Shown in pieces: positions 1,889 to 26,307 of a stretch of 28,309 nucleotides of DNA (positions are counted from its first letter, which is position 1; each line of letters opens with the position of its first letter). The notes under the pieces were generated by a model. That model worked only from the letters and a program-made list of their open reading frames with translations. It ran no database searches and was not told where the DNA came from. The position numbers and the translations under genes were made by a program. Source of the stretch: a virus; the IMG/VR virus record IMGVR_UViG_3300030109_004998, positions 1 through 28,309 of that record. One strand, 5' to 3'.

Positions 1889-2491
1889 ATGAATAAAAAA
1901 TTATTAGTAGATGTAAGACCATTTGAAATTTCTCGTCAGAAAATTGATGAGAGTATTAAAGAAAACGCTGGTCGTTTAATAGTAAAGGGTGTACTACAAA
2001 GAGCCGAATCTAAAAATCAAAATGGTCGAGTTTACCCACGAGAAGTATTATTGAAAGAAGTTTCTAAATATTTAGAAGAACAAGTTAGTGAGAGACGAGC
2101 ACTCGGAGAACTCGACCATCCAGAATCATCTGTAGTTAATTTAAACAATGCGTCACATAATGTTATTGAAATGCATTGGGATGGCGATGACCTTTTAGGA
2201 ACTGTAGAAGTTCTATCCACACCAAGTGGAAATATATTAAAAGAACTATTTAAATCAGGTATTAAACTTGGTATTTCATCAAGAGGATTAGGTTCAGTAG
2301 AACCTGTAAATGAAAAGAATGGTGAAGATGGAACTGTTGAGGTTCAACCAGATTTCGAACTTATTGCTTTTGATTTCGTATCTAATCCATCTACACATGG
2401 TGCTTTTATGAGACCTGTCAATGAGGGTGTAGAAAAACAAAAACCTGAAACAAGAATCGAATCTATTATCAACTCTATAATGAGGGGATAA
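1889..2491 (+). CDS. gp21: Prohead core protein protease (gp21-like serine protease)
   Basis: A 200-residue protein matching the T4 gp21 prohead protease family in length and motifs. Catalytic candidates are His77 in the motif GELDHP, Ser130/Ser131 in LGISSRGLG and Asp162 in AFDFVSNPS, corresponding to the His-Ser-Asp triad of T4 gp21. NQNGRVYP near residue 47 is another family hallmark. In T4 this enzyme sits in the prohead core and cuts scaffold, capsid and internal proteins after (L/I)-x-E before DNA packaging, then destroys itself. Matching sites are visible in this window: Ile60-Ser-Glu62 in the major capsid protein and Leu5-Lys-Glu7 in the scaffold. Its gene lies four bases after the previous stop and is followed closely by a basic multi-module gene. 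Confidence 0.92.
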   Translation: MNKKLLVDVRPFEISRQKIDESIKENAGRLIVKGVLQRAESKNQNGRVYPREVLLKEVSKYLEEQVSERRALGELDHPESSVVNLNNASHNVIEMHWDGDDLLGTVEVLSTPSGNILKELFKSGIKLGISSRGLGSVEPVNEKNGEDGTVEVQPDFELIAFDFVSNPSTHGAFMRPVNEGVEKQKPETRIESIINSIMRG

Positions 2492-2494
2492 TCG

Positions 2495-4114
2495 ATGCCG
2501 TCTGTATCTAAAAAACAACAGAAGTTTATGGGTATAGTACGGTCTATCCAAAAGGGTGAACAACCTGCTGGTAAATTTTCCAAAGCTGCTCAAGACGCTG
2601 CTAAAAAGATGAAGAAGAGTAGTGTGAAAAAATATGCTAAAACCAAACACGATGATTTACCTGTCAAAAAAGAGTCTCTATCAAAATCACAAATTAAAAA
2701 GATGAGAGATGAGTTTGATAAAACAGGTGAACTACCACCTCATTTAAAAAAGATATCAAAAGCCAAAAAAGAATTTGAGAAAAAATTCAAAGTAAAGGAT
2801 GTCGAGATACCTGGTTTAGAGTGGATGAGTAAGTTAGGTGAGGCTGCTGATAGAGATTATAAGGCAGAATACAAAAAATTTCAATCATCAACAAAAGCTA
2901 AAAAATACAGAGCCGAGTTGAATAAATACAACCGACAAAAAGGCACTTATGGGAATGGAGATGGAAAAGACGCTTCTCATAAGGGAGGAAAAATCGTGGG
3001 GTTTGAGAAAGAATCAACAAACAGAGGACGAGCTGAAAAGAGTCGATTAAAAAAAGAAGATATCAGACAAGAGATAGAAGAATATGTTGATAACATTTTA
3101 GAAGATTTATGTTTGTGTGAGGCTTGTCAAAAAGGATATATGACTCATCCAACTCGTAAGACAAAAATCATGTTTGGTAAAAGATACAGAAATTGTATTA
3201 AGAAAGAGGATGTGAATGAAGCCGTATACAAACTCAAACGAGGTAGCACCAATAAAGACTTGGATGAACTCGATGCTTTACTGGCTAGAGCTGGATTTAA
3301 GGGAAAACCTGATTTTAACAAAATGACCTGGTCAATAAAAAATAAAAATCCAAAGATAGCAAAAATCATAAAGAGTAAAGGTGGGAAGAAAATTAAAGAA
3401 TCTGTGGATGAAGCTGTATCAGCAAAAGGTTGGAATATGTCTAAAAAGTTTATTCCAATTCTTGGCAGAGAGGTAAAAAATTTAGTTAAATATCACAGAC
3501 AACAAAATGAAGAAGATTTTCTTGAAGTTGCGAATTATATGGAATTGCAATTAAAGTATATGAAAAAGAATTTAAATGAATCCATTGAAGAAGCTGATTT
3601 AGGACTTACATATAAAAAAGGTAAAACAGTAAAAGTCAAACACAAAACATCTGGAAAAAGTCTTGTCATTATAGACAAACCAGTCGTAAGAAAAGAATAT
3701 GAAAAAATAGGATTTTTTGCTGAAGGAACCTGTGGATATGGTATAGATGGGAAGATTGGTGAAGAACCAGCAGGTCCTAATTTGATGAAAAAAATTAAAA
3801 AAATATCCAAAGATAAAGAAAAGAAAAAAATATTAAAATCTAAGAAAGAAGCTGTAATTAAAGTTTCTAAAAAAGATGATGTACCTGGCAACGCTATGAA
3901 GATGAGTGGTGAGGAAAAGATTAAAAAATTAACATATAGTGGAAGTAATGGAAAGGGAAGTTATGAAATCAAAGGAAAAAATTTAAATGTCATTGGTATA
4001 AGACCAAGAGACAAAGGGTTTTTCGTAAGACATTTTACGATGAAAACTGGATTTAGAAAAGCTAATTTATACTATGATGGTGTAAATTTTATGGATAAAA
4101 ACAAAAAGTTCTAG
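2495..4114 (+). CDS. Multi-module basic protein with DUF3008-like N-terminus
   Basis: A 539-residue, lysine-rich protein with ribosome site AGGGGATA just before the ATG. It reads as a string of short modules. Residues 1-60 (VSKKQQKFMGIVRSIQKGE) resemble the DUF3008 family of small phage proteins. Residues 62-90 hold KMRDEFDKTGELPPHLKKI. Residues 120-180 hold a conserved-looking NRQKGTYGNGDGKDASHKGG followed by ESTNRGR. Residues 206-234 carry Cys206, Cys208, Cys211 and Cys234, ending in FGKRYRNCIKKE, a possible small metal site. Residues 243-300 and 350-539 hold further unrelated blocks. Several modules look like those recurring in structural proteins of marine phages, from memory and not checked. 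It may be an internal head protein; function is unknown. Confidence 0.6.
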   Translation: MPSVSKKQQKFMGIVRSIQKGEQPAGKFSKAAQDAAKKMKKSSVKKYAKTKHDDLPVKKESLSKSQIKKMRDEFDKTGELPPHLKKISKAKKEFEKKFKVKDVEIPGLEWMSKLGEAADRDYKAEYKKFQSSTKAKKYRAELNKYNRQKGTYGNGDGKDASHKGGKIVGFEKESTNRGRAEKSRLKKEDIRQEIEEYVDNILEDLCLCEACQKGYMTHPTRKTKIMFGKRYRNCIKKEDVNEAVYKLKRGSTNKDLDELDALLARAGFKGKPDFNKMTWSIKNKNPKIAKIIKSKGGKKIKESVDEAVSAKGWNMSKKFIPILGREVKNLVKYHRQQNEEDFLEVANYMELQLKYMKKNLNESIEEADLGLTYKKGKTVKVKHKTSGKSLVIIDKPVVRKEYEKIGFFAEGTCGYGIDGKIGEEPAGPNLMKKIKKISKDKEKKKILKSKKEAVIKVSKKDDVPGNAMKMSGEEKIKKLTYSGSNGKGSYEIKGKNLNVIGIRPRDKGFFVRHFTMKTGFRKANLYYDGVNFMDKNKKF

Positions 4115-5114: not shown

Positions 5115-5348
5115 ATGATTAAGTTAAAAGATTTTTTAAATGAAGGAATTCCAAATTACTTTAGAGGATACTTTTCTAATATCGATGATAATATCAGCAG
5201 ACTAGAAAAAAATGTTAAACTATTGATAAAAGATTTAGGAAAAGATGGTTTAAAGAAAGAATCATTAGAAGTAGCATCTCTTTATAAAAAACACATCATA
5301 GAGTTTAAAGTTAAACTTAAAAACTTTGAGAAGAAAAATCGTGATTAA
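5115..5348 (+). CDS. Small helical protein with N-terminal LNE leader, candidate internal head protein
   Basis: A 77-residue basic, helical protein preceded by GAGG. It begins MIKLKDFLNEG, so Leu8-Asn9-Glu10 forms an L-x-E site followed by Gly. T4 internal head proteins carry a similar leader of about 10 residues that targets them to the prohead and is removed by gp21 after (L/I)-x-E. The next gene starts with nearly the same leader. The remaining 67 residues form charged helices (NISRLEKNVKLLIKDLGK, HIIEFKVKLKNFEKK) and could bind DNA. The packaging hypothesis is inference from the leader and the nearby gp21 gene. The 3' end overlaps the next gene by 8 bases. Confidence 0.5.
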   Translation: MIKLKDFLNEGIPNYFRGYFSNIDDNISRLEKNVKLLIKDLGKDGLKKESLEVASLYKKHIIEFKVKLKNFEKKNRD

Positions 5349-5643
5349 GTTAAAAGAATTATTAAACGAAAAAACTGTATCAATGGGACAAGTTCAATCC
5401 AATCCATATGCTACATCGTTTAAGTCACCTGAACAAATAAAAGAAGATGGACATACTGATGTTCCATCTGCTATAAGAAAATTAAAAACATCTATTGAAG
5501 ATGCCAACGATATAATGAATAAACTCAATAGTATGTCAGAAGAACAATCATTACCAAGTTGGTGGACAGATAAGATTACTCTTTCTGCTAACTATCTTAA
5601 TAAGGCTAGAGATTATATATTAAACCCAAAGGAAATGAAATAA
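5341..5643 (+). CDS. Small protein with N-terminal LNE leader, candidate internal head protein
   Basis: A 100-residue protein. The GTG at 5341 is preferred over a TTG at 5326 because GAGAAG lies about 7 bases upstream and the resulting N-terminus, MIKLKELLNEK, matches the MIKLKDFLNEG of the preceding gene. Leu-Asn-Glu at residues 8-10 is an L-x-E site of the gp21 type. After the leader the proteins differ: this one has a polar segment (QVQSNPYATSFKSPEQIKED) and helices with PSWWTDKITLSANYLNKARD, similar to small phage proteins of unknown role. It overlaps the previous gene by 8 bases. A packaged, trimmed internal protein is inferred. Confidence 0.5.
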   Translation: MIKLKELLNEKTVSMGQVQSNPYATSFKSPEQIKEDGHTDVPSAIRKLKTSIEDANDIMNKLNSMSEEQSLPSWWTDKITLSANYLNKARDYILNPKEMK

Positions 5644-5659: not shown

Positions 5660-6898
5660 ATGAAAGACCAAATTACATATAACGGAAAAAAATACAAAAG
5701 AGTTGACGAGGATAAAACTTTAAAAGAGTTTATGCGAGACACACCTACTGATGCAGCTGAAAAACAAAAATTAAAAAATCCGAAGAACGGTAAAGAAGTT
5801 ACAGTTAGGTCTATAATGAATCAAGGTACAAGGAAATATCCATCTGCATTAGTTAAAAAAGCAAACGCAATATACAAGAAAGCTTTGGAAAAGGAACAAA
5901 AAGCCAGAAATAAGTTTCATAAAGACAGAACCAAAAAGTATAGTTTCAGAGGTGATAAAAAAGAAGGTGTAAGTGAAAGTCTTGATAGACGAGTAACTGT
6001 AAAAGAAGTTCGCTCTTGGTTAAAAAAATTAGAAGAGTTTCGTTATAGAAAAATAAGAAATGTTGATGCTAGAAGAGTTACTTCTTTTATCAATAGTAAT
6101 TTAAGTGAAACAGATTTACCTAATTCTTTACAGAAGAAGTGGGAACACGCCAAATACGGTAGAGAAAAACATTTGGCAGACAAATTCATCAAAGAAAAAA
6201 TTAGTCAGAAGTGGAGCGAGATTGCTCAAAATGAGGGTGTTGAAATGAAAAATATTAGTTTATTAGGAATAGTAGAAGACCTTGTGCCAGTTAAGGAACG
6301 AGAGCAAGGGGTAAACAAGTTCGAGGTCATTGAGGCTGTAAAAAACTATCAGATGATAGGTGGACAACTTTTCAAAGACAATGGTATTATTGAAGTTGCT
6401 AAACAACTTGTTGGTATTGCCGAATCTGCTCAAAATCATGTACTAAGTGAAACCGATGATTGGTTTGATTCTGTTTCTGTTAAAAGAAATATGAAAGAGT
6501 TAAAAGGTTTAACAGGTCAATTTAAAAAAGCTGCTCTTGAAGCCAATGCCGTAAACGAAAGATTAAGTGCTTTATATGAAGACATGGGACATATTTTAAA
6601 TAGATACTATGATATTGAGGAAGCTATGGATCCTGTTGGTAAAGAAGATGATGATGTCGATAACGATGGTGATGTTGATGATAGTGATAGATACTTAAAG
6701 AAAAGAAGAGATGCTATTTCTAAAAATATCAAAAAAGAAGAAGTTGATACTAAAAGTATCGATGATAGAATATCAAAAAATGTAGAAAAAATAAATAAAT
6801 TGAAAGAAAAAAGACCAGTGCCAACTAACGATGTTGCTAGATTAGTAGGTCTGAATAACGCACTTAGAGATAAAAAGAAAAAATTACAGAAAAAGTAA
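5660..6898 (+). CDS. Helical protein with EF-hand-like calcium loop, probable virion protein
   Basis: A 412-residue charged protein. Residues 1-100 form a basic module with TLKEFMRDTPTDAAEKQ, VRSIMNQGTRKYPSALVKKA and KARNKFHKDRTKKYSF. Residues 105-325 are helical. Residues 332-343 (DVDNDGDVDDSD) place Asp at loop positions 1, 3, 5, 7, 9 and 12, a textbook EF-hand or dockerin-type calcium loop; it is followed by RYLKKRRDAI. The C-terminus is a lysine-rich coiled coil. I recall DNDGDVD-x-SD-x-YL modules from marine T4-like virion proteins, which would fit a structural role. Reaction unknown. The ATG at 5660 lacks a visible ribosome site, so the start is uncertain. Confidence 0.55.
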   Translation: MKDQITYNGKKYKRVDEDKTLKEFMRDTPTDAAEKQKLKNPKNGKEVTVRSIMNQGTRKYPSALVKKANAIYKKALEKEQKARNKFHKDRTKKYSFRGDKKEGVSESLDRRVTVKEVRSWLKKLEEFRYRKIRNVDARRVTSFINSNLSETDLPNSLQKKWEHAKYGREKHLADKFIKEKISQKWSEIAQNEGVEMKNISLLGIVEDLVPVKEREQGVNKFEVIEAVKNYQMIGGQLFKDNGIIEVAKQLVGIAESAQNHVLSETDDWFDSVSVKRNMKELKGLTGQFKKAALEANAVNERLSALYEDMGHILNRYYDIEEAMDPVGKEDDDVDNDGDVDDSDRYLKKRRDAISKNIKKEEVDTKSIDDRISKNVEKINKLKEKRPVPTNDVARLVGLNNALRDKKKKLQKK

Positions 6899-6904
6899 AA
6901 GTAA

Positions 6905-7201
6905 GTGGCTGAACAATTTGTATTTTATTCACTTTTTTTATGGCAAATCGGTTTTATCATAGGAATATTATTAAAGTTATTTTACAAACCAAGTGGGAAA
7001 AAATTTGTATCAACTGTTGTGTCAAACACACCAGCAGTTGAGGTGGAGACACCAAAATCAAAACCTAGTCACATTGATGTTGAAATGAAAAAAAACATAT
7101 CATTACAGAAAGCTAAGGTGTCATCTGTAAAATCAGATGAAGTGATTAGGGGTAAAGTGTCAACACAAAAAGAAAAACTTAAACAACTTAGAAGAGGTTA
7201 A
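6905..7201 (+). CDS. Small N-terminally anchored membrane protein
   Basis: A 98-residue protein starting at a GTG six bases after the previous stop, with a weak purine stretch before it. Residues 4-28 (FVFYSLFLWQIGFIIGILLK) form one hydrophobic helix followed by basic residues, so the protein is anchored in the inner membrane with a cytoplasmic or periplasmic tail of about 70 residues. The tail is polar and lysine-rich and ends KEKLKQLRRG, similar to the KLDKLRKLRRGN end of the unrelated gene at 13080. It lies two bases before the actin-like gene, so it could be its membrane partner; this is speculation from position. Confidence 0.5.
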   Translation: MAEQFVFYSLFLWQIGFIIGILLKLFYKPSGKKFVSTVVSNTPAVEVETPKSKPSHIDVEMKKNISLQKAKVSSVKSDEVIRGKVSTQKEKLKQLRRG

Positions 7202-7203
7202 AG

Positions 7204-8223
7204 ATGGCCAAAGGGTTAGATTGTGGAACATCATTTTATATTGCTGCTACAGAGGATGTAGTAAAAAAACAACGAAATGCATTCTTAACTGTCGATGGGG
7301 AGGTGAACCAAGTCAAGAGAATGTTAAAACGACAAGGAATTCCCTTTGTCGAAAAAGCTGGTAAAATACACATTGTAGGACAACACGCTTTTAACTACGC
7401 TCAAATATTCTCTACAGCAGAACTTAAACGACCTATGAAAAGTGGTTTACTAAATCCGACTGAAAAAGATTCTTTGCCGGTATTGAATGCTATAATTGGT
7501 GAGTTACTTGGGGATGCTAAAGATGGGGAAACTTGTGTATATTGTGTTCCGTCAAAACCAATTGATGTTCAACGAGAAGTATCATATCACGAAGATGTAT
7601 TGAGAACGATAATAGAACAATACGGGTATTCCGTAAAAAAGATAGAGGAGGCAGTTGCCATTGGATACGAAGGTTTAGTTGATACTCAACTAACAGGTGT
7701 AGCCATTTCAATGGGAGCTGGAATGTGTAACATAGCCGTTATGTATCAAGGGATGACTGCCCTATCTTTTAGTGTAAGTCGTGGCGGTGATTGGGTTGAT
7801 GAAAATGTATCTATGGATACAGGTGTATCAAAAGCTAAGGTAACTAACATCAAAGAAACATCAACTACACTTGATTTATCTTCTGCTACTTATCAAAATA
7901 TTTATGAAGAAGAGACAGATGAGGCTAATGTACTTATTGCTATTCGTTCTTATTATGGTGCCCTAATAAATTATCTTTTAACTAATTTAAAAGTTCAGTT
8001 TGAAGGTGTTGAAAATGTTCCTAACTTTCCTAATGCTGTTCCTATCGTTATCGGTGGTGGAACTTCATTGGTAAAAGGATTCTTGGATGTGTTTAACGAA
8101 CAATTTGACCAAGATGAGTTTCCAATACCTATATCAGAAATTATACACATAGAGGATGCTCATACAGCAGTTGCTAGAGGATGTTTATCTGAAGCTCAAC
8201 TAATAGAAGAAGATGACGAATAA
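7204..8223 (+). CDS. Actin/MreB-like ATPase (ASKHA superfamily)
   Basis: A 339-residue protein, close to the length of MreB, with the actin-fold motifs in order. Phosphate-1 is GLDCGTS (residues 4-10). Connect-1 is KIEEAVAIGYEG (146-157). Phosphate-2 is AISMGAGMCNIAV (167-179), where the usual first Asp of D-x-G-x-G is Ser169. SRGGDWVDE (192-200) matches the MreB/Hsp70 GGD segment. The adenosine motif is VIGGGTSLVKG (282-292) and Connect-2 is EDAHTAVARGCL. The family binds ATP and most members form filaments. The altered phosphate-2 residue may lower hydrolysis. A strong AGAGG site precedes the ATG. It lies among late genes between an anchored protein and bS21. Possible roles are intracellular positioning or assembly scaffolding; plasmid-type segregation is less likely here. 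Confidence 0.85.
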   Translation: MAKGLDCGTSFYIAATEDVVKKQRNAFLTVDGEVNQVKRMLKRQGIPFVEKAGKIHIVGQHAFNYAQIFSTAELKRPMKSGLLNPTEKDSLPVLNAIIGELLGDAKDGETCVYCVPSKPIDVQREVSYHEDVLRTIIEQYGYSVKKIEEAVAIGYEGLVDTQLTGVAISMGAGMCNIAVMYQGMTALSFSVSRGGDWVDENVSMDTGVSKAKVTNIKETSTTLDLSSATYQNIYEEETDEANVLIAIRSYYGALINYLLTNLKVQFEGVENVPNFPNAVPIVIGGGTSLVKGFLDVFNEQFDQDEFPIPISEIIHIEDAHTAVARGCLSEAQLIEEDDE

Positions 8224-8242
8224 CAAAAAAAAAGGTTTTAAT

Positions 8243-8470
8243 ATGTTTGAAAAGAAAAGAAAAAAGAAAAAACAATCGTCTATACTTTATGTAGATGCTA
8301 CAAATAAAAGTTACGAAAGAGCAATATCGGAATTCAAGAGAAAAGTAAAAAATTCTAACTTACTTAAAGAGTTAAGAGAAAGGGAATTCTACCAAAAACC
8401 ATCTGCTGCTAGACGAGAAAAAAGAAAACAGAGATTGATAAAAATAAAATCTCTTCGTCTAAATGATTAG
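8243..8470 (+). CDS. rpsU: Phage-encoded 30S ribosomal protein bS21
   Basis: A 75-residue basic protein with the bS21 pattern throughout: ILYVDATNKSYERAISEFKR, then LKELREREFYQKPSAARREK and a basic tail. E. coli bS21 has the equivalent REFYEKP. The ATG at 8243 is chosen over one at 8213, which overlaps the upstream gene, because AAAGG lies 7 bases before it and host bS21 proteins begin near this point. bS21 binds the 30S platform near the anti-Shine-Dalgarno region and helps initiation on structured messages. Phage copies are known from marine phages and may replace or supplement host S21 to favour late phage messages. The gene ends at a non-coding gap before the scaffold gene. Confidence 0.92.
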   Translation: MFEKKRKKKKQSSILYVDATNKSYERAISEFKRKVKNSNLLKELREREFYQKPSAARREKRKQRLIKIKSLRLND

Positions 8471-8600
8471 GTTTTATTTTTTTCTATATACTTATATGTA
8501 ACCTCAATACTCTGTGGTCTTACAGAGTCTAAAAAAAATTAATCCTAATTAAAGTTTCAGAATAACTTTATTCCAATACAAATAGTATGGGAGACATAAT
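8471..8600 (+). promoter_or_regulatory. Non-coding leader before scaffold gene, with hairpin
   Basis: This 130-base gap has no ORF. It opens with a T-rich tract and TATATACTTATATGTAAC; the 11 bases TTATATGTAAC at 8492-8502 recur exactly at 25096-25106 before the polymerase gene. A perfect 7-bp hairpin follows (ACTCTGT 8509-8515, ACAGAGT 8522-8528, 6-base loop), then an A-tract. It lacks a downstream U-tract, so it is not a + strand terminator; a message-stabilising 5' structure is possible. The scaffold ribosome site GGGAGA is near 8589. Confidence 0.4.
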
Positions 8601-9695
8601 ATGTCTGATTTATTAAAAGAAGCTATCGCTGATGCTAAAGCTGTTCGTGAAACTGCTCTACAAAATGCTAAAATGGCTCTTGAAGAAGCATTCACTCCAC
8701 ATCTAAAATCTATGCTTTCTGCTAAACTTGCGGAAGAAGACCTTGAAGAAGATGAAGATTTTCAAGAAGGTATGCACGATGACGAAGATGAAGAAGAAGA
8801 AGAAACTGATGAAGGTATGGGTATGAAACCTCGTAGAGATGACGATGATGATGAAGATCCTGATGAAGGTATGCACGACAAACCTCGCAGAGAAGATGAC
8901 GATGATGAAGAAGAAGTCGATGAATCTGAAATCGTTGAAATCGATGGTGTGAAGTATGCTCCAATTCAAGATGTTGAAGAAGGTATGCATGACGAAGACG
9001 ATCCTCGTAGAGAAGATGACGATGACGAAGATATGGATGAGTCTGAAGAGTTAGATCTTGAAGCAGTAATCAAAGAGCTTGAAGAAGAGTTAGAAGAAGC
9101 TGGTGATCCTGGTGACGAAGAAGAATCTGTTAACGAAGAAGAAATAACTGAAGGTCCTGATGACGAAGAAGAAAAAGTTGACGAAGAAATCGTTAACGAA
9201 GAAGACGAAGAAGACCTTGAAGAACAATCTACTTCATCTGGAATCGGTAAAGGTTCCGGAGTAAAACAGCCTTCTGCTGGTGACGAGGAAGATCCTGGTA
9301 AAGGTAAAACTCACGAACAAGTTAATAAGCTAAGTAATGAGCTTAATGAATATAAGGAAGCTGTTGTCTATTTAAAAGACAAGCTTCATGAAGTTAACAT
9401 CCTTAATGCTAAACTTCTATACACTAACAAACTTTTCAAAGAGTTTGTATTGAGTAACGATCAAAAGTTAAAAATTGTTGAGACTTTTGATAGAGCTCAA
9501 ACAACTCGTGAAATCAAGTTGGTTTACTCTACACTTGCTGAGTCTTATAAAGACAATGGTGGTGAGAGAAAAGAAGTTGTTAAGGAATCGTATGCTAGTA
9601 AGAAATCTGGTGGAACTGCACCTAAGACTAAAATCATTAGTGAGGAAAGTCAAGTTGCAAACCGTTTCAGAAAACTTGCTGGTATTAAATCTTAA
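8601..9695 (+). CDS. gp22: Prohead scaffolding protein (gp22-like)
   Basis: A 364-residue, extremely acidic protein directly before the major capsid gene, the T4 gene 22 position. Residues 1-45 form an amphipathic helix opening MSDLLKEAIADAK, with an L-x-E site at residues 5-7. Residues 46-215 are runs of D and E with internal repeats (EGMHD, PRREDDDD). Residues 245-320 carry the conserved scaffold block: a coiled coil, then LLYTNKLFKEFVLSNDQKLK and VYSTLAESY. In T4 this protein forms the prohead core that shapes the capsid and is digested by gp21; many L-x-E sites fit that fate. It is larger than T4 gp22 because of the acidic insertion. It ends 25 bases before gp23 and both share one message up to the terminator. 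Confidence 0.88.
   Translation: MSDLLKEAIADAKAVRETALQNAKMALEEAFTPHLKSMLSAKLAEEDLEEDEDFQEGMHDDEDEEEEETDEGMGMKPRRDDDDDEDPDEGMHDKPRREDDDDEEEVDESEIVEIDGVKYAPIQDVEEGMHDEDDPRREDDDDEDMDESEELDLEAVIKELEEELEEAGDPGDEEESVNEEEITEGPDDEEEKVDEEIVNEEDEEDLEEQSTSSGIGKGSGVKQPSAGDEEDPGKGKTHEQVNKLSNELNEYKEAVVYLKDKLHEVNILNAKLLYTNKLFKEFVLSNDQKLKIVETFDRAQTTREIKLVYSTLAESYKDNGGERKEVVKESYASKKSGGTAPKTKIISEESQVANRFRKLAGIKS
8766..9035 (+). repeat. Degenerate acidic repeats inside the scaffold gene
   Basis: Four imperfect copies of a module of the form EGM-x-x, PRR, then E/D-rich run occur at residues 56-60 (EGMHD only), 71-84 (EGMGMKPRRDDDDD), 89-102 (EGMHDKPRREDDDD) and 127-142 (EGMHDEDDPRREDDDD). The underlying DNA is rich in GATGACGA-type units. 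They may have arisen by slippage or duplication and supply acidic peptides after proteolysis. Confidence 0.7.
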
Positions 9696-9720
9696 ACCGC
9701 TTTAATTCGGAGAAAATAAA

Positions 9721-11325
9721 ATGAGCGATTATATAAACGAAGGTCTTCTGAATTCTGCTTCCCCTATTAAGAAGCAAAAAGATGAGGCCGCTAAGCTCGT
9801 TACTAAGTGGGAACAATCTGGACTTTTAGAAGGAATGGATAATGAGTGGCAACGCTCTGGTATGGCTACATTGTTAGAAAACCAGGCACGTCAGTTAATA
9901 TCTGAGAATTCTAAAACTTCACCTAACGCCGGTGCTGGTGTTGGTGATGAAGAATGGTCTGGAGTTGCTCTTCCACTTGTAAGACGAGTATTTGGAAACA
10001 TCGTTGCGCAGGAACTTGTTTCTGTTCAACCAATGAACTTACCTTCTGGACTAGTTTTCTATCTTGATTTCAAGTATGGATCAAGTCAAAATAAGTTCAC
10101 TTCCGGTGGTTCAATTCACGGAAAAACAGGTCCTAACTCACCTTCTGGTTCATCTGCTCCTTTTGGAACAGATACAGATGGTCTTTACGGAGCTGGTAAG
10201 TATGGGTATTCAGTTAGTTCATCAACTGTCGCCGTATCTTCAACTGCAGTTTCTGTAGCTACTTTTAAAGAAATTGACTTTAATAGTGAAGATTCAGCAT
10301 CACTTGGTAACAATTTGTTTAAAGTTACTATTGCGAAAAGTAACTTTTCAAAAGCTGATTACAAAGCTCTTAGGGCTTGGGATATAACAGCTACTGATGC
10401 TACAGTTTTATCTCAGTACACTAAAGAAGATGGCGCTAATGTAACATTTATTGTGTCTGCTTCTAATGCTAATGATGCTAGTGGATCTTATAATGTTGAT
10501 TTACTACATGCAAACACTGCTACTGACAGAGGTGATTTTGAAGATAGAACTGGTAATGCTACTCAAGATACTCTAAGTATACCTGAAGTTAACCTTGAAA
10601 TGAGGTCTTTACCAATCGTTGCTAAGACTCGTAAGTTGAAAGCTGTTTGGTCACCTGAGCTTGCTCAAGACTTAAACGCTTATCACTCTGTTGATGCAGA
10701 AGCTGAATTAACATCTATGTTAAGTGATTACATCTCAATGGAAATTGATTTGGAAATTCTTGATATGTTGATTTCAGATGCTGTGACAGAAGAATACTGG
10801 TCAGCAAAAGCTGGTGAGGATTTTGATTCTGCTACTAATCTTTTCGTATCTAATGTCTTTTATGGCACTAGATTTGAGTGGTATCAGACTCTAGTTTCTA
10901 AGATTCAAAAAGTATCTAACGAAATTCATCGTTTGACACTTCGTGGTGGTGCTAACTTTGTAGTTGTTGCTCCAAAAGTTGCTACTATCCTTGAATCACT
11001 TCCTGGCTATGTAAGTCAGCCTGGTGACGGTGGAAATGACCAATTTGGTATGGGTATTTCTAAAGTCGGTCAAGCTGCTGGTAGATATACTGTCTACAAG
11101 AATCCTTACATGACTGAAAATTCAATCTTGGTTGGATTTAGAGGAAGTAACTTCCTAGAAACTGGTGCTGTATATAGTCCTTACGTTCCGTTAATTACAA
11201 CTCCATTGGTATACGATCCTAGTGATTTTACACCAAGAAAAGGTGTGATGACTCGTTACGCTAAGAAGATGATTCGTCCAGAGTTCTATGGTTTGATACA
11301 TTGTAAGTCACTTGACTTAGTGTAA
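9721..11325 (+). CDS. gp23: Major capsid protein (gp23-like)
   Basis: A 534-residue protein, close to T4 gp23 (521), placed after the scaffold. An N-terminal propeptide is expected: the segment ARQLISENSK contains Ile60-Ser-Glu62, an (I/L)-x-E cut site at almost the T4 position (Glu65). Following it are GDEEWSGVALPLVRRVFGNI and VSVQPMNLPSG, hallmarks of the T4-like HK97-fold capsid start, and later LVGFRGSNFLETGAVYSPYVPL near the end. An S/T/A-rich insertion spans about residues 155-285. It assembles as hexamers (and perhaps pentamers, as no gp24 homologue is in the window) on the scaffold core. GGAG lies before the ATG; a strong terminator follows the stop. Confidence 0.95.
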   Translation: MSDYINEGLLNSASPIKKQKDEAAKLVTKWEQSGLLEGMDNEWQRSGMATLLENQARQLISENSKTSPNAGAGVGDEEWSGVALPLVRRVFGNIVAQELVSVQPMNLPSGLVFYLDFKYGSSQNKFTSGGSIHGKTGPNSPSGSSAPFGTDTDGLYGAGKYGYSVSSSTVAVSSTAVSVATFKEIDFNSEDSASLGNNLFKVTIAKSNFSKADYKALRAWDITATDATVLSQYTKEDGANVTFIVSASNANDASGSYNVDLLHANTATDRGDFEDRTGNATQDTLSIPEVNLEMRSLPIVAKTRKLKAVWSPELAQDLNAYHSVDAEAELTSMLSDYISMEIDLEILDMLISDAVTEEYWSAKAGEDFDSATNLFVSNVFYGTRFEWYQTLVSKIQKVSNEIHRLTLRGGANFVVVAPKVATILESLPGYVSQPGDGGNDQFGMGISKVGQAAGRYTVYKNPYMTENSILVGFRGSNFLETGAVYSPYVPLITTPLVYDPSDFTPRKGVMTRYAKKMIRPEFYGLIHCKSLDLV

Positions 11326-11354
11326 ACTAAATCATATATCTGATACATAACATA

Positions 11355-11386
11355 GGGGGAAACTTAGGTTTCCCCCTTTTGTTTTT
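11355..11386 (+). terminator. Rho-independent terminator after major capsid gene
   Basis: A perfect 9-bp stem (GGGGGAAAC at 11355-11363, GTTTCCCCC at 11368-11376) with a TTAG loop is followed by TTTTGTTTTT. It lies 30 bases after the capsid stop and before the next promoter-like box, so it separates the head transcript from the neck and tail transcript. It is the only strong intrinsic terminator I see in the window. Confidence 0.93.
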
Positions 11387-11395
11387 ATAAAGTAT

Positions 11396-11403
11396 ATATT
11401 TAT
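11396..11403 (+). promoter_or_regulatory. Putative late promoter box before neck gene
   Basis: An ATATTTAT box (extended TATATTTATA) lies just after the capsid terminator and 18 bases before the ATG at 11422, with AGGAG between. A promoter here would restart transcription for the neck genes after the terminator. Confidence 0.5.
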
Positions 11404-11421
11404 AGGTAGGAGAATTATATT

Positions 11422-12600
11422 ATGCCAAAATTAGATTACGCCTATGAAGATCCATCAGGTGCTTTTGTCGCAGGACAAACTCCATATGGAACTTATGATT
11501 CAGACTCCACATTTGCAACTGATATTCAATCAGTAACTAAGTGGTGTGCTAAACGACTTGGTTTTCCTGTTTTACAACTTGAAATACCAAGTGGTTCTAT
11601 CTATGCTTGTTTTGAAGAAGCAGTAAATGAATACTCACAACACATCAATAATTACAATATAAAGAATTGGATGTGGGAACAGTATGGTGAAAAAAATAGG
11701 ATATCGGGTTCACTTAGTACAGGTTCTTTAGATCCAGTGACACCTACATTAGGACCATCTGTAACTCTTTCTGATAAATACGGACAACTTGCTGGGATGA
11801 GTGAAACCTATGATTTGAAAAAAGGATTTATTACATTAAGTGGTTCAAAACAAGATTATGATTTACAAGATGTTTGGGCTAATGTGAGTGAAAGTGGAAA
11901 AAGAATTGAAGTACAAAGAGTTTTTAATCATCAACCAGCAGCCGTATCAAGATTTTATGATCCTTATGCTGGTACTTTTGATCAAAGACAACTTCTTGAT
12001 GCTTTTGGTTTTGGTAATGTTTCTCCAGCAATATCTTTTGTTCTTAAACCAATATCTTATGACTTGGCTAGAGCAAATGCTATTGAAACATCGGATTTGG
12101 TAAGAAAGAGTGCTTACTCTTTTGAAATACACAATAACAATTTAAGAATATTTCCAGAACCAACAACTAATGATGCTGGTGAGAAAATATGGTTTGAGTA
12201 TTATGTTAAGGATGATATTAGAAACACAAACAATATTAGTGCTTCTTTACAAGGTGGTGTATCTGATCCTTCTAATGTTCCATACAAATTTATTACTTAT
12301 AATTCCATTAATCAACCTGGTCGTCAATGGATTAGAAAGTATACTTATGCTCTTGCTAAAGAGCTATTAGGTATCATTAGAAGTAAGTATAGCTCTATGC
12401 CTATACCTGATGGTGAAGTTACATTGGATGGTGAAGCTTTAAAGACTGAAGGAAGAGAAGAAAAAACACAGTTATTAGAAGAGTTAAAGGAATTTTTAGA
12501 ATCAGTATCTTTAACAGAAAAATTAAAAGCTGAAGCTGAAGAAGCTAATGCTCAACAAGAGGTGTTGGCAAAAGCACCATTAAACATATTCATAGGATAA
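11422..12600 (+). CDS. gp13: Neck / head-completion protein (gp13-like)
   Basis: A 392-residue protein first in the neck cluster. Residues 33-80 (VTKWCAKRLGFPVLQLEIPSGSI, then CFEEAVNEYSQHINNYN) resemble the helix-strand-helix opening of T4-like neck proteins, where CLRxLGxPV...DDALxYF is usual. A middle block has SYSFEIHNNNLRIFPEPT-like text (residues near 235-255) and the C-terminal third has WIRKYTYALAKELLGIIRSK followed by a long acidic coiled coil. T4 gp13 joins the portal to gp14 and closes the head after packaging. The protein is followed four bases later by a gp14-like gene, as expected. Assignment is from recalled family patterns plus position; T4 gp13 itself is shorter (309). Confidence 0.6.
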   Translation: MPKLDYAYEDPSGAFVAGQTPYGTYDSDSTFATDIQSVTKWCAKRLGFPVLQLEIPSGSIYACFEEAVNEYSQHINNYNIKNWMWEQYGEKNRISGSLSTGSLDPVTPTLGPSVTLSDKYGQLAGMSETYDLKKGFITLSGSKQDYDLQDVWANVSESGKRIEVQRVFNHQPAAVSRFYDPYAGTFDQRQLLDAFGFGNVSPAISFVLKPISYDLARANAIETSDLVRKSAYSFEIHNNNLRIFPEPTTNDAGEKIWFEYYVKDDIRNTNNISASLQGGVSDPSNVPYKFITYNSINQPGRQWIRKYTYALAKELLGIIRSKYSSMPIPDGEVTLDGEALKTEGREEKTQLLEELKEFLESVSLTEKLKAEAEEANAQQEVLAKAPLNIFIG

Positions 12601-12603
12601 TAG

Positions 12604-13080
12604 ATGTCTGCTACACGACCATTTTTTATTTCCCAAAAGGAAATAAACTTAGTTGACCATATGAACGAAGAACTGATTGACGAGATAGTTGGTCAGTCAG
12701 TTGATATCTATAAAGTAGCGCCTGAACACACAAATTCAAACATATATGGTGAATCTACCACTAAGTATTTTAATGTAGGATTTAGGGTAAATTGTCTGAT
12801 ACGATATAATGCTCCTGAAGTAGAACAATTTCAAGAAGCAGGACCAGATACAAACTCTACGATTGATTTGATGTTTCAGAGAAATAACTTAGCTAGTGGT
12901 TCACTAAACTTTTTTCCTGAAGCTGGTGATGTATGTGATTGGAATGATTGGTATTGGGAAATAAACGGAGTAACAGAACCACAACTTATTGGTGGTCACC
13001 CAAACTTTAGTCATGCTATTAAAGCAACAGCACATCGTAGTAGATTGTCATCTATTAATATAGAAGAAAGACCGAGATAA
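12604..13080 (+). CDS. gp14: Neck protein (gp14-like)
   Basis: A 158-residue protein, shorter than T4 gp14 (256). NEELIDEIVGQSVDIYKVAP followed by NIYGES and KYF corresponds to the T4 gp14 pattern of a helix, then YYVPRE and an FGED loop. Later parts (GDVCDWNDWYWEINGVTEPQ) suggest a beta domain as in head-tail connector proteins. It lies between the gp13-like and gp15-like genes, the expected neighbourhood. gp13 and gp14 form the collar platform to which the finished tail attaches. AGGATAATAG gives the ribosome site. It overlaps the next gene as TAATG. Confidence 0.6.
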   Translation: MSATRPFFISQKEINLVDHMNEELIDEIVGQSVDIYKVAPEHTNSNIYGESTTKYFNVGFRVNCLIRYNAPEVEQFQEAGPDTNSTIDLMFQRNNLASGSLNFFPEAGDVCDWNDWYWEINGVTEPQLIGGHPNFSHAIKATAHRSRLSSINIEERPR

Positions 13081-13412
13081 TGGCCGTTCAATTGTTAGAT
13101 AAAACCCTTGTTATGAAACCTCGTAGGTCACATCATGTAAAACCTGTTAGGGTAGAAGAAGCAGTAGAAGAAACCATTGAGAATGTATATGGAGAACCAA
13201 GAGCTGATAAGTTTGATGAGATAATAGATTTACTGAAACAAGGTAATATTTATGGAGAGAAGGAGAACATAACTTTAGGAGCAGTTGATGTTCCAATTGA
13301 AAAACAAATTGCAATTGATAAAGCTTCTACCAAAGGATTAAAGTCTGAAGAGTACGCTAATACATCAGAGAGTAAGTTAGATAAACTAAGGAAACTACGC
13401 CGTGGCAATTAA
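13080..13412 (+). CDS. Small unknown protein in neck cluster
   Basis: A 110-residue polar, charged protein coupled to the upstream gene by TAATG and overlapping the downstream gene by 11 bases. No membrane segment. It contains NVYGEPRADKFDEIIDLLKQ and NIYGEKENITLG, two related V/I-YGE stretches, and ends KLDKLRKLRRGN, like the tail of the anchored protein at 6905-7201. It is probably largely disordered with short helices. Its place between gp14-like and gp15-like genes suggests a neck-assembly accessory or virion protein, but there is no direct evidence. Confidence 0.5.
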   Translation: MAVQLLDKTLVMKPRRSHHVKPVRVEEAVEETIENVYGEPRADKFDEIIDLLKQGNIYGEKENITLGAVDVPIEKQIAIDKASTKGLKSEEYANTSESKLDKLRKLRRGN

Positions 13413-14184
13413 ACCAATAACAAATGATAATGCTGGATACGAGTCAAATGTAAATCGTGCTGAACAAACAAGTATTCGAAGTGAAAAAGGTAATTCTAAA
13501 GTAGTCATTAAGAAGCCAGGTGGTCAAAATGCTGGTAAGGGATTCTCTATTGGTGTTAAAGAGAATGAAACTATTTCTGTACCTGTTCTTTATGGTAATG
13601 AAGAAAGATGGAAGTCTATAAAAGCTAGAGGAACACTAAGAGATAAAAACGGTGTAATAATTTTACCGATGATAGTGATAAAAAGAACATCACTTAGTAT
13701 GAATCCTGATATGCCACTATCTTTTGATAATGATGTAAAAGGAAAATTTGTATCTGTTGTTCGTTCAAGTAGTGGTTGGAGTAAAAATAATAGATATGAT
13801 AGGTTTGCTGTTTTAACAGGTCAAAAACCTGTACAAGAGTTTGTGAAGACAGGTATGCCTGATTTTGTGGTTTGTAGTTATAGTGTAGTTATGATGACAT
13901 CTTTTATAGAACAGATGAATGATTTAAATAATCTTTGGGTAGAGCATTTAGAAACTTACTTTGGTGACCAAACATCTCATCGTTTTCTTTCATCACTTGA
14001 TGGTGATATATCAAACGAAATAGAAATGGAATCACAAGGTGAGAGAATAATAAGAAATGAATTAAGTCTATCAATAAAAGGATATATGATACCTGAATTT
14101 ACTGATAATGTATTTGGTAAAACTGCTGAATTGGGTAGAGCTTATACACCAAAAAAAGTTACTTTTTCCGAAAAACTTTTATAA
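13402..14184 (+). CDS. gp15: Tail sheath terminator / completion protein (gp15-like)
   Basis: A 260-residue protein starting at a GTG inside the end of the previous gene. ETISVPVLYGNEERWKSI followed by IILPMIVIKRTSLSMNPDMP parallels the T4 gp15 segment FIRVPITYASKEHF...ILPRINLHLVDFSYN. The PDFVVCSYSVVMMTSFIEQM block matches the gp15 stretch PSPIKMIYELSIFTRYEDDM, and LSLSIKGYMIPEF matches the gp15 end LTFEVNGWMYPP. gp15 caps the last ring of sheath and tube as a hexamer and joins the tail to the neck. Order (neck, gp15, sheath) agrees. The first 35 residues are a polar extension absent from T4. Confidence 0.78.
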   Translation: MAIKPITNDNAGYESNVNRAEQTSIRSEKGNSKVVIKKPGGQNAGKGFSIGVKENETISVPVLYGNEERWKSIKARGTLRDKNGVIILPMIVIKRTSLSMNPDMPLSFDNDVKGKFVSVVRSSSGWSKNNRYDRFAVLTGQKPVQEFVKTGMPDFVVCSYSVVMMTSFIEQMNDLNNLWVEHLETYFGDQTSHRFLSSLDGDISNEIEMESQGERIIRNELSLSIKGYMIPEFTDNVFGKTAELGRAYTPKKVTFSEKLL

Positions 14185-14208
14185 TTATATATATATAATT
14201 GTTATAAC
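14181..14208 (+). promoter_or_regulatory. AT-rich palindromes before coiled-coil gene
   Basis: Between 14185 and 14231 and its edge lies an 18-base perfect palindrome (AATTATATATATATAATT, 14183-14200) followed by an 8-base one (GTTATAAC). It partly resembles the TATATAT...AATTGT portion of the 23-bp promoter repeat. It may be a variant promoter or operator; an RNA hairpin of only A-U pairs would be weak. Confidence 0.3.
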
Positions 14209-14231
14209 AAACTAAATTAGAGGTTTTTAAA

Positions 14232-14531
14232 ATGTCAGAAGTAAAATTTACAGAACAAGAACTACAGTCACTTCAAGAACTTTCCAATAAATCTAATGGA
14301 ATTACCAATAGGTTTGGTCAGTTAGCGATTGCTAAAATTAACTTAGAAAAACAATCTGAGTCGGTTGAAGAAGAAGAGTTTAAACTACACGAAGAGTTAG
14401 AATCTCTTAAAAAAGAAGAACAAGAGACTCTTCAAAAGATTACTGAAAAGTATGGACCTGGTTCATTAGATCCACAAACAGGTGTTTTTACACCATCTGT
14501 AGAAGTTCAACCTTCCGAAGAAGAAAAATAA
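14232..14531 (+). CDS. Small coiled-coil protein before tail sheath
   Basis: A 99-residue acidic protein with GAGG before its ATG. Residues 8-75 form one long coiled coil (QELQSLQELSNKSNGITNRF, then EKQSESVEEEEFKLHEELESLKKEE in pieces), followed by ITEKYGPGSLDPQTGVFTP and a short acidic tail. The two-helix pattern with a loop is prefoldin-like in appearance, and KYGPGSLDPxTG is a motif I recall from marine phages at this position. A chaperone or assembly factor for the sheath or neck is a guess from position. It is separated from the sheath gene by a clear promoter repeat, so it ends its transcription unit. Confidence 0.5.
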   Translation: MSEVKFTEQELQSLQELSNKSNGITNRFGQLAIAKINLEKQSESVEEEEFKLHEELESLKKEEQETLQKITEKYGPGSLDPQTGVFTPSVEVQPSEEEK

Positions 14532-14561
14532 AATAACTTTCTCTGTCTTTCCAAAATTAGG

Positions 14562-14586
14562 TAATATTTATATATGAATAATTGTA
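14562..14586 (+). promoter_or_regulatory. Putative late promoter, copy 2 of a 23-bp repeat
   Basis: An exact second copy (14564-14586) of the 23-base element at 396-418, with the ATATTTAT box at 14564-14571. The sheath ATG lies 30 bases beyond the repeat and is preceded by TTTGGAGACAG as ribosome site. Strong sheath production late in infection would fit a promoter here. Confidence 0.6.
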
Positions 14587-14616
14587 ACGAATCTTATCTA
14601 ATTTTGGAGACAGCAA

Positions 14617-16518
14617 ATGGCTGAAAAAATTCTATCACCAGGTGTATTTACAAATGAAATAGACCAATCTTTTTTACCCGCAACTGCAGGTCCCATAGGA
14701 GCAGCTGTTGTTGGTCCTACTGTAAAAGGTCCTATCCTTGAACCAACTATGGTTAACTCTTACTCCGAGTTTGTCAACATATTCGGTGAGATAATAGAAA
14801 GCGGTAGTGACAATTATCAATATTTAACATCACATACTGCTAAAGAATATTTAAGAATAGGTGGTCCTCTAACAGTTGTTAGAGTTGCTGAACCTGAAGG
14901 TAACACATCAAAAGCTACTGCGGTTGTAAGAGAGAGTTCGGGTAGTGCTGAATTCTTTACACTTGAAGCACTAGGCGATGGTCCTCAGTTTAATAATTTT
15001 GTAGGAACGGGTTCTAATTTCGGAGATAATAATCTACTTCCAATAAGAACACATTCTACTACAAATGACCTACTTCTTTCTGGTAGTTATGGTGGAAGAG
15101 CTGATAACTTCAGATATGAAATATCTAATAAAAACAATTCTAAAGGTACATTTACCCTTTTAATTAGACAAGGTAATGATACAACCAATAGAAAAGTAGT
15201 CATTGAAACACACGAAAATTTAAGTTTAGATCCTGCTTCAACTGATTATATTTTAAAAAGAATTGGAAATCAAACAACAACTGTTGTTGTTGAAGATGGT
15301 GTTGCTTATAATAGACCAAGTGGTGATTTTCCAAATAGGTCAAAGTTTGTTAGAGTAAGTAATCTTCCAGAATCGAGGAAAACACCAAATTACTTAGATG
15401 AAAATGGTAACTTAACTAATAATGCTTTATCTGCTTCTTTACCAGTAATTGGTAGTGGAAGTTATGGTGGGGCTTTTGGAGCTGGTACGGATATAGCTGG
15501 TGGTACTATAGTGAGTACAGAAGCCGCACAAACTGCTGGTTCAAATGGTGACGAGAATATCTCACATCCATTTAAATTTTATGGTGATATAGATAGTTCA
15601 AATTCACAAGGTATTAATATGTCAGAATCAGCTATTAAGCCTGCTGGTTCTGCTCAAGGTGGTGGGTATGCTACTGCTATCAGTATCTTAAGTAACAAAG
15701 ATGAGCATGATATAAATCTACTTTTATTACCTGGTGTAATTGACCAAGCTATAGATGCTAATCATAATTCAATTATAGGACAAGCAATAGAAATGTGTCA
15801 AGATAGAGGTGACTGTTTCTTGGTTTATGATAATGTTGCTTTGACTTCTAATGTGGCTACTGCAAAAACAAATACTGAAGCTCGTAACTCAAGTTACGCT
15901 GCTACTTATTATCCTTGGATACAAATTCAAGATGCTACTGCTGGTGTAAACAGATATGTTCCACCATCAGTTGTTATTGCTGGTGTGTACAACTTTAACG
16001 ATACTGTTGGACAACCTTGGTTTGCACCTGCTGGTTTAAATAGGGGTGGTATCGATTCTGCAGTTAGGGCATATAAAAAATTAACACAGGCAAATCGTGA
16101 TGACCTTTATGATTCAAATTCAAATCCGATTGCTACCTTTCCTGGTCAAGGTGTTACTGTCTTTGGACAGAAAACAACACAGAAGAAAGCTTCTGCTCTT
16201 GACCGAGTAAATGTAAGAAGATTGTTAATTAATCTTAAGAAGTTTGTTGCTAACTCTTCAAGAAATCTTGTGTTTGAACAAAATACAAATTCTCTAAGAA
16301 ATCAGTTTTTAAATACTGTTAATCCTTATATGGAAGAAGTTCAAGCTAATAGTGGATTAAATGCTTTTAGAGTTGTGATGGACGATACTAATAATACACA
16401 AGAGACAATTGATAGAAATCAATTGATAGGACAGATATTTATACAACCAACAAGGGCTGCTGAATTTATTGTGCTAGACTTTGTTGTTCAACCAACAGGA
16501 GCTGCTTTTCCTGAATAA
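14617..16518 (+). CDS. gp18: Tail sheath protein (gp18-like)
   Basis: A 633-residue protein close to the T4 gp18 length (659). The start ILSPGVFTNEIDQSFLP and the following GPIGAAVVGPTVKGPILEPT are diagnostic of contractile tail sheath proteins, as is the YLRIGGPLTVVRV segment. The C-terminal third (residues 440-633) has ATYYPWIQIQDA, PPSVVIAGVYNFNDTVGQPWFAPAG in pieces, NVRRLLINLKKFVANSSRNLVFEQN and FIQPTRAAEFIVLDF, the conserved core of the sheath fold. The middle is a G/S/N-rich variable domain, typically surface exposed. It forms the contractile outer tube around gp19. It is followed by the tube gene after a promoter-like box. Confidence 0.96.
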   Translation: MAEKILSPGVFTNEIDQSFLPATAGPIGAAVVGPTVKGPILEPTMVNSYSEFVNIFGEIIESGSDNYQYLTSHTAKEYLRIGGPLTVVRVAEPEGNTSKATAVVRESSGSAEFFTLEALGDGPQFNNFVGTGSNFGDNNLLPIRTHSTTNDLLLSGSYGGRADNFRYEISNKNNSKGTFTLLIRQGNDTTNRKVVIETHENLSLDPASTDYILKRIGNQTTTVVVEDGVAYNRPSGDFPNRSKFVRVSNLPESRKTPNYLDENGNLTNNALSASLPVIGSGSYGGAFGAGTDIAGGTIVSTEAAQTAGSNGDENISHPFKFYGDIDSSNSQGINMSESAIKPAGSAQGGGYATAISILSNKDEHDINLLLLPGVIDQAIDANHNSIIGQAIEMCQDRGDCFLVYDNVALTSNVATAKTNTEARNSSYAATYYPWIQIQDATAGVNRYVPPSVVIAGVYNFNDTVGQPWFAPAGLNRGGIDSAVRAYKKLTQANRDDLYDSNSNPIATFPGQGVTVFGQKTTQKKASALDRVNVRRLLINLKKFVANSSRNLVFEQNTNSLRNQFLNTVNPYMEEVQANSGLNAFRVVMDDTNNTQETIDRNQLIGQIFIQPTRAAEFIVLDFVVQPTGAAFPE

Positions 16519-25113: not shown

Positions 25114-26307
25114 ATGATTAAATTGGTTATTTCTAAACCTAACTGGTCCAAGTCTCACCCGTTAAATGACTTAGTTTTAGCTTACGATGCTATAGAACAT
25201 AAGTTAGTTTACGCTAATCATTATGAGAAGATGACTGTTGATATAGATTATCCAGATGAAGGTATGTTGATTGATGATTGGAAAGCTGGATACTCTTATG
25301 ATTTTGCTGGTCGCCCACAATATTGTGCTGATATCTTAAACTATTGGATATTAAACCAACCACTTGAACATATACAATGGGACAACTTTTACGACCAAGA
25401 TGATTTTACATATTACTATCCGTTAGATAAGATGATAGAACAATTATGTGAAAAAGTTCCACAATATGATAGTATGTATAATGGAGAGACATTTATTAAG
25501 TTTCACAATGACTTTATAAATGCTTTCGGTGAGTTAGAATCAAATGGTATCGGAGTCAATACAGATTTCACCAAGATATTCGGTGACCATATGTTAAAGT
25601 ATATTCACAAGAAGAAGATATATCAGAACTATAACTTTTTTACAACTACATCAAGACCATCTAACTCTATTCACAATCTTAACTTTGCTGCTCTTACACA
25701 AGAACAAAGAAAGGCATTCTCTCCACTTAACGATGTATTCGTAGAGTTTGATTTTGAGTCGTATCACCCAAGATTGATTGCCAAACTAATTGATTATGAC
25801 TTTGGTAATAAGTCGGTCTATGGTAAGTTAGCAGAAGACTTAGGTGTGACAGAGGGAGAAGCAAAAACACTAACATTTCAAAACTTATATGGTGGTGTCA
25901 GAAAAGACATTGCTAAGATGAGTGAGTTTTTCAGAGGTGTGGAAGATTTGGTAAAAGTATTTTATGACGAATATATGACTCGGAATAGAATCTTAACACA
26001 TATTTATAAACGACCAATGAAGAGAGCTAATTTAGGTGATCTAAATGCTCAGAAGTTATTTAATTATTACATACAGGCGTATGAAACAGAGCGGAATGTT
26101 ACTATCTTAAAAAAATTACACACATATTTATTAGAGAGAAAGACTAACATAGTCCATTACAACTATGATAGTTTTTTATTTGATTATGCCAAGGAAGATG
26201 GAAAGGAAACAATACATGACATCCAAAAAATCTTACGACAAGATAATTTTATTATACACAGTAAAGTCGGTAACACTTATGGGACATTAACAGATTATGA
26301 GTTTTGA
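25114..26307 (+). CDS. Compact, diverged family A (Pol I-like) DNA polymerase
   Basis: A 397-residue protein with the family A polymerase motifs in order. LESNGIGVN (141-149) matches the thumb-side LExxGxxVD. TTTSRPSNSIHNLNF (177-191) matches TGRLSS...PNLQN. Motif A is EFDFESYHPR (Asp213). Motif B is EAKTLTFQNLYGG, with Lys251, Phe255 and Tyr259-Gly260 at the spacing of Pol I Lys758, Phe762 and Tyr766. QAYETERNVTILKK (321-334) matches the QGTAAD helix. Motif C is HYNYDSFLF (Asp352 for Asp882). Odd points: His218 replaces Glu710, Glu247 replaces Arg754, and Ser353 follows the motif C Asp instead of Glu. There is no 3'-5' exonuclease domain. T4 uses a family B polymerase, so this is unexpected. 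It overlaps the next gene by 11 bases. Confidence 0.85.
   Translation: MIKLVISKPNWSKSHPLNDLVLAYDAIEHKLVYANHYEKMTVDIDYPDEGMLIDDWKAGYSYDFAGRPQYCADILNYWILNQPLEHIQWDNFYDQDDFTYYYPLDKMIEQLCEKVPQYDSMYNGETFIKFHNDFINAFGELESNGIGVNTDFTKIFGDHMLKYIHKKKIYQNYNFFTTTSRPSNSIHNLNFAALTQEQRKAFSPLNDVFVEFDFESYHPRLIAKLIDYDFGNKSVYGKLAEDLGVTEGEAKTLTFQNLYGGVRKDIAKMSEFFRGVEDLVKVFYDEYMTRNRILTHIYKRPMKRANLGDLNAQKLFNYYIQAYETERNVTILKKLHTYLLERKTNIVHYNYDSFLFDYAKEDGKETIHDIQKILRQDNFIIHSKVGNTYGTLTDYEF

Follow-up and report, generated by a model that had tools for sequence, protein, structure and literature searches.

Does a ten-residue leader shared by two adjacent small proteins of a T4-like phage serve as a cleavable tag that brings unrelated proteins into the head? 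The question is raised by two overlapping genes in the window (the whole 28.3-kb stretch of DNA analyzed, 28,309 nucleotides), which is a record of a T4-like myovirus. P1 has an ATG start (5115–5348, 77 aa) and begins MIKLKDFLNE/GIPNYF, where the slash, here and below, marks a known or predicted cleavage position; P2 has a GTG start (5341–5643, 100 aa) and begins MIKLKELLNE/KTVSMG, with an 8-base overlap between the P2 start and the P1 stop. The two leaders are identical in 8 of 10 residues, the differences being D/E and F/L, and blastp aligns residues 1–10 only (E 0.004–0.005). Profile-profile comparison of the two proteins reaches a probability of 20%, anchored on the leader. Thus the initial annotation, which described two adjacent small proteins with a common N-terminal leader and differing bodies, is borne out on both points: both ORFs are found, and nothing aligns past residue 10.

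Table 1. Coordinates of the leader proteins and of neighboring features in the window.
Feature	Position	Strand	Evidence or remark
gp21-like prohead protease (Peptidase_S77)	1889..2491	+	Pfam E 6e-32; phrog_207 E 1.4e-55
539-aa mosaic protein, weak DUF3008-like N-terminus	2495..4114	+	11 [LIVM]xE sites, e.g. VNE242, VDE306, IEE366
P1 leader MIKLKDFLNE, proposed cleavage behind Glu10	5115..5144	+	Starts, blastp, AlphaFold
P1 mature cargo, residues 11–77, predicted helical hairpin	5145..5348	+	AlphaFold mean pLDDT 89; 22-row alignment A2
P2 leader MIKLKELLNE (starts with GTG), proposed cleavage behind Glu10	5341..5370	+	ORF, blastp
P2 spacer peptide, residues 11–35, ends at predicted second site QIKE35	5371..5445	+	Glu35 invariant, 35 rows
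P2 DGHTD module, residues 36–100, predicted helical hairpin	5446..5643	+	Mobile; also in mosaic polyproteins of related phages
412-aa neighbor, 18 [LIVM]xE sites	5660..6898	+	
gp22-like acidic scaffold (inferred), 23 [LIVM]xE sites	8601..9695	+	Position and composition
Major capsid protein (gp23); shell cleavage predicted at QLISE62/N	9721..11325	+	Pfam E 2.3e-76

No near DNA relative of the window was found among 50,697 phage records; in its gp23 the window comes closest, among named phages, to Microcystis phage Mel-JY01 (52.7% identity), followed by Flavobacterium phage immuto (50.5%). The gene for a gp21-like S77 protease, the presumed enzyme processing the tagged proteins, is present in the same head cluster, 2.6 kb upstream of P1/P2. 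The scaffold assignment is inferred from position and composition, since no Pfam or PHROG family identifies that ORF. A tail sheath gene is also present (Pfam E 1.3e-13), together with a gp19-like tube match below its cut-off. Proteins at related loci that we judged by eye to be similar to the 412-aa neighbor carry a leader of the MAKLKDLLSE type. The head cluster further contains an actin-like gene (7204–8223; Pfam Volactin, E 1e-71), in a family that takes its name from an archaeal actin. Among the baseplate-region genes lies a 397-aa ORF (25114–26307) without a Pfam match, which, by its motifs as judged by eye, looks like a shortened family A DNA polymerase; its homologs occur near several tagged genes.

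For both P1 and P2, AlphaFold predicts a low-confidence leader helix (residues 4–8) followed by a separate, confident helical hairpin, which in P1 spans residues 14–74. Residues 11–35 of P2 form a low-confidence region, and the single predicted site of P1 and both predicted sites of P2 fall outside the confident fold. The second P2 site, QIKE35/DGHTD, is more strongly conserved than the Glu10 site, with Glu35 the same in all rows of the structure alignment of P2 (A1; 35 rows, comprising 34 loci chosen from 39 and the window). The corresponding alignment of P1 (A2) has 22 rows, 21 loci from 23 and the window. Because of this second conserved site, Lys11 is probably not the only new N-terminus of P2, and cuts are predicted after both Glu10 and Glu35. 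Pfam and PHROGs gave nothing reliable for either protein, and no homologs were found in named phages. Foldseek against the PDB returned no match for P2 and no significant fold match for P1 (best E 2.7, a Rop variant). A weak match of P2 to LXG proteins (E 7e-5) fell below the cut-off and was rejected as coiled-coil similarity. P1 and P2 are thus predicted, from these models, to be small helical hairpins, to which no function after release is assigned.

The leader recurs far more often than expected by chance. A DNA pattern encoding MIK[LF]KD[LF][LF]NE matched 114 stretches among 2.9 million viral contigs, in which a codon-permuted control matched none; 106 of the 109 newly found matches begin no more than 30 codons after an upstream stop. 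Across cellular genomes (one genome per species, 84,980 bacterial and archaeal species) there was a single match, internal to a longer ORF that looks like an rRNA methyltransferase. A looser regular expression matched 215 of 1862 distinct ORFs, called with our own ORF caller, from 170 records (169 loci and the window); in 20 shuffles it matched 21.6 on average and never more than 31. When starts were picked by M[IVAK]K[LM]K alone, an [LIVM]xE motif ended exactly at residue 10 in 130 of 172, the next most frequent ends within positions 6–30 having counts of 30 (position 6, the LKE within the leader) and 8. With columns 4, 7, 8 and 10 left free, Leu occupied position 4 in 128 of 144 starts, L/I/F/M position 7 in 134, L/I/M/V position 8 in 136, and Glu position 10 in 121; conservation stops after residue 10. 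Both this register and the coupling of the motif to residue 10 are observed directly. The counts do not represent independent events, because the rows are related; even so qualified, the sequence comparisons indicate that the likeness of the leaders is not due to chance. In two leaders residue 10 is Asp, not Glu (MIKLKELMKD, L114 9076; MIKLKELIQD, L139 8005). Leader-like starts on a terminase-like ORF (L110; G020 95668) and on a GroES-like ORF (G006 64475), both identified by eye, were treated as chance matches.

The obvious comparison is the capsid targeting sequence (CTS) of T4, found on IPI, IPII and IPIII and in the gp24 and Alt propeptides. IPII and IPIII start MKTYQEFIAE/A and gp24 starts MAKINELLRE/S (NC_000866). 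In the available part of PMC9026906, the first ten residues of IPIII are described as enough for packaging, positions 4 and 7 as important for targeting and 8 and 10 for processing, and Asp at position 10 as blocking processing without blocking targeting. A T4-type CTS would be a propeptide of 10–19 residues with hydrophobic residues at positions 4 and 7 and (L/I)-x-E at 8–10, would stand before unrelated mature parts, and would be accompanied by a co-encoded S77 protease of the gp21 family in the head cluster. The leader meets each of these points: it has ten residues at ORF starts, hydrophobic positions 4 and 7, [LIVM]xE at the expected place, unrelated cargo in 77 clusters (see below), and an S77 gene in the window, in 5 of 30 whole contigs and in 11 of 25 further contigs, most of these being fragments. 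It differs from the T4 sequence in having Leu where T4 has the aromatic Tyr4, in being placed on up to 22 genes per contig, on enzymes as well as small proteins, and in that V and M are also allowed at P3 of the internal sites.

On a 50-kb stretch of T4, the regular expression returned 3 of 65 genes, exactly ipII, ipIII and gp24, all three of which are among the cleaved proteins according to the accessible text of PMC9026906. It misses one known case, because T4 IPI, which starts MKTFKEFTSTTTPVSTITEA in the record, was not matched. In immuto, 13 of 206 genes matched (shuffle mean 2.1), and in contig G020 27 of 160 (shuffle mean 1.3). Melnitz, a named T4-like marine phage, had no excess, with 4 of 194 genes against a shuffle mean of 1.8. 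Melnitz also encodes a DUF6267 protein (L321 13272–14528; Pfam E 3.6e-105), and a protein that by eye is similar to it (L111 4176–5414) starts with the CTS-like MLTFKEFLLE.

Over all loci, the leader proteins number 309: 280 carry the MIKLK type and 29 a second type, MKKSELRxLIRE. They fall into 96 cargo clusters, 77 of which contain the MIKLK type, and this diversity of cargo is observed directly. Twenty leader proteins were run against Pfam, with matches over cut-off to ART-PolyVal (2), AAA_33/Zeta_toxin (1), NUDIX (1) and HD (1), and no domain over cut-off in the rest of the 20. The identified cargo domains are thus of the effector and nucleotide-enzyme kind. The tagged ADP-ribosyltransferases have a parallel in T4 Alt, which is packaged and injected with the DNA (PMC5512222, available in part). 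One leader-like start in immuto belongs to a gene annotated as 5'-3' deoxyribonucleotidase, whose Pfam match to NT5C (E 4.7e-5) narrowly fails the cut-off. Tagged genes can form tandem arrays, and their number differs widely among long contigs: G020 has 22, of which 14 lie within 6,492–16,264, and G006 has 3.

Several features of the cargo were noted on inspection. Short Cys-rich peptides (xCxCGxxCC-like), possibly metal-binding pieces, follow soon after the leader, between predicted sites (L069 9678–10016, L097 5159–5614, L104 9348–9695, L114 9076). In many proteins that have little else in common, a second short peptide of RKFGEPLPTL-like sequence stands behind the leader (L066 10860, L096 4431, L119 8130, L131 7110). 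A contig with a tagged ART gene also contains an ORF of about 87 aa (L314; G024 46165–46314) that resembles only the C-terminal part of gp23, and whose N-terminus ahead of that part looks signal-like.

Sites of the leader type are not confined to N-termini. Besides its place behind the leader, the P2 domain (DGHTD...LPSWWTDKI) is found within long mosaic proteins, which hold many modules, most of these proteins being without a domain recognized by Pfam. All 44 distinct contexts of the module, in which 37 different 8-mers stand upstream, have Glu just before it and I/V/M/L two residues before that Glu; the search pattern required neither residue. Judged by these contexts, the P2 domain is a mobile module. 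More generally, [LIVM]xE lies within −2 to +3 of sharp homology edges between mosaic proteins in 374 of 831 cases on the N-side and 407 of 1020 on the C-side, where random positions in the same proteins give means of 130 and 142 (approximately 2.9-fold enrichment). [LIVM][ND]E is enriched 3.4- to 4.3-fold, and [LIVM]xD and [LIVM]xK show no excess at the edges. Ex[LIVM] (2.1–2.7-fold) and [KR]xE (2.0–2.4-fold) are likewise enriched, which we attribute to frequent KESVNE-like strings. In the capsid protein, L-I-x-E is kept at the presumed shell cleavage place in all MCP N-termini listed.

The linkage to T4-like structural genes is less complete. Of the pattern-selected loci, only 56 of 109 have such a gene on the fetched stretch. 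Among 30 whole contigs, 29 of which came from loci without a structural gene on that stretch, eight have one or more of the S77, gp23, portal, sheath and gp19 genes over cut-off and three further ones have weak gp23 pieces; the wider structural-gene check covered 24 contigs, that is, the 30 minus six that already had gp23 (G001, G006, G007, G010, G017, G020). Two of the 25 further contigs searched for S77 (G016, G019) had been included before. The absence of any S77 or structural gene over cut-off from contigs as long as 77 and 82 kb is awkward for the CTS interpretation. Five long contigs without these genes over cut-off were set against queries taken mainly from G020: three match 13–18 queries and two match 2–3. 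Because most contigs are fragments, however, the lack of structural genes says little.

Taken together, these results uphold most of what the initial annotation had proposed. The likeness to the T4 internal-head-protein leader holds in length and in key positions 4, 7, 8 and 10; the gp21-type site said to close the leader is rigidly coupled to residue 10 as (L/I/V/M)-x-E, and a gene for a gp21-type protease lies in the same cluster. The suggested scan for proteins with this start succeeded, the leader is highly specific to viral contigs (114 stretches against one internal cellular match), and its reading as a modular tag on unrelated cargo is matched by the clusters found. The expected co-occurrence with T4-like structural genes held in the window and at about half of the loci, most contigs being fragments. 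The restriction to short proteins made in the initial annotation is too narrow, because tagged proteins of about 500 aa and multi-site mosaic polyproteins exist.

Could the leader be an uncut helix that docks proteins to a virion or replication structure, with LxE as part of the docking face instead of a protease site? The predicted helix and the end of conservation at residue 10 would suit such a role, and cutting has not been demonstrated. Yet LxE also closes alternative N-termini in the P1 family (KWRDWRLSE) and the second leader type, recurs at module edges far from any leader, and equals the conserved MCP site, and we regard an uncut helix as unlikely. Still less can be said for P1 and P2 being tandem duplicates whose cargo diverged past recognition, leaving the leader as a conserved stump: the genes adjoin and overlap and both proteins are predicted hairpins, but the absence of alignment past residue 10, the low profile probability and the presence of the leader on 77 unrelated clusters, including ART, NUDIX, HD and P-loop domains, make this very improbable. 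As a general explanation, tandem duplication is already disfavored.

We give equally little credence to the idea that the 30 conserved bases act as DNA or RNA, as a start-region expression signal or a recombination site for cargo swapping, with the peptide itself having no role. Codon identity within leaders is 0.65, where codon usage predicts 0.47, and tagged genes stand in tandem arrays; the leader codons are thus excessively alike, and recent shared ancestry or a DNA-level role therefore adds to the similarity. However, among 150 leaders there are 127 different DNA sequences, which encode 81 peptides and preserve the pattern of residues; starts may be ATG or GTG, and E10 and the spaced hydrophobic positions follow the logic of a protein.

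Based on these considerations, we think it likely that the leader is a T4-type CTS, cut by the S77 protease and serving as a modular tag, and that sites of this kind also stand between mosaic modules. A cleavable packaging tag is well supported by sequence comparison, packaging, cleavage and injection being inferred. As a short helix at the N-terminus, the leader would dock the protein to the prohead core, and its last residues would form a site at which the S77 prohead protease encoded by the phage itself can act. Once the shell has formed, this protease would cut behind Glu10, with a second cut behind Glu35 in P2, and the freed cargo would lie loose inside the head and leave from there with the DNA. 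Phages of this group would place the leader on many unrelated proteins, and the same type of site would part the domains of mosaic polyproteins; because leader-type sites separate these domains, one precursor could yield several packaged pieces. Docking, like the later steps, is inferred: there are no virion data, and the literature accessible to us, in part only, yielded none on leader proteins and no virion proteomics of immuto. A broader proposal, to which we give somewhat better than even chances, is that this T4-like marine phage group has a plug-in cargo system of leader and sites between swappable modules, in which recombination at the sites remodels arrays and polyproteins; the loads (ADP-ribosyltransferase, kinase, NUDIX, HD and Cys-rich peptides) would be released as processed pieces.

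Two other systems are related in part. Head propeptides of SPN3US and phiKZ resemble the leader in that an N-terminal stretch is common to diverged packaged proteins (the first 15 residues of gp53/gp54, among the head proteins of these phages, are identical) and in that each propeptide has several protease sites (PMC5694885, seen in part). They differ from it in being mostly longer than 100 residues, in using a protease of another family (phiKZ gp175 typifies S80) and in having paralogous rather than unrelated cargo. Polyvalent proteins of phages and plasmids are multidomain packaged proteins with effector domains, and one cargo here is ART-PolyVal, but the available portion of PMC5512222 does not describe a common short leader or interdomain prohead-protease sites. 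The CTS as a cargo tag is already known from T4. A literature search that covered few subscription journals found neither such a leader in marine phages nor any phage polyprotein that a prohead protease processes, and in the same partly accessible literature we found no CTS-type tagging at such scale, across enzymes and at module junctions.

For most genes of uncultured marine phages no role has been assigned. Being recognizable in sequence, the leader would single out, in dozens of families together, those whose products are packaged into heads and are probably delivered during infection. The leader system also suggests a natural supply of compact, self-removing packaging tags, and the idea from T4 that the CTS enables exchange of internal proteins among phages would become countable.
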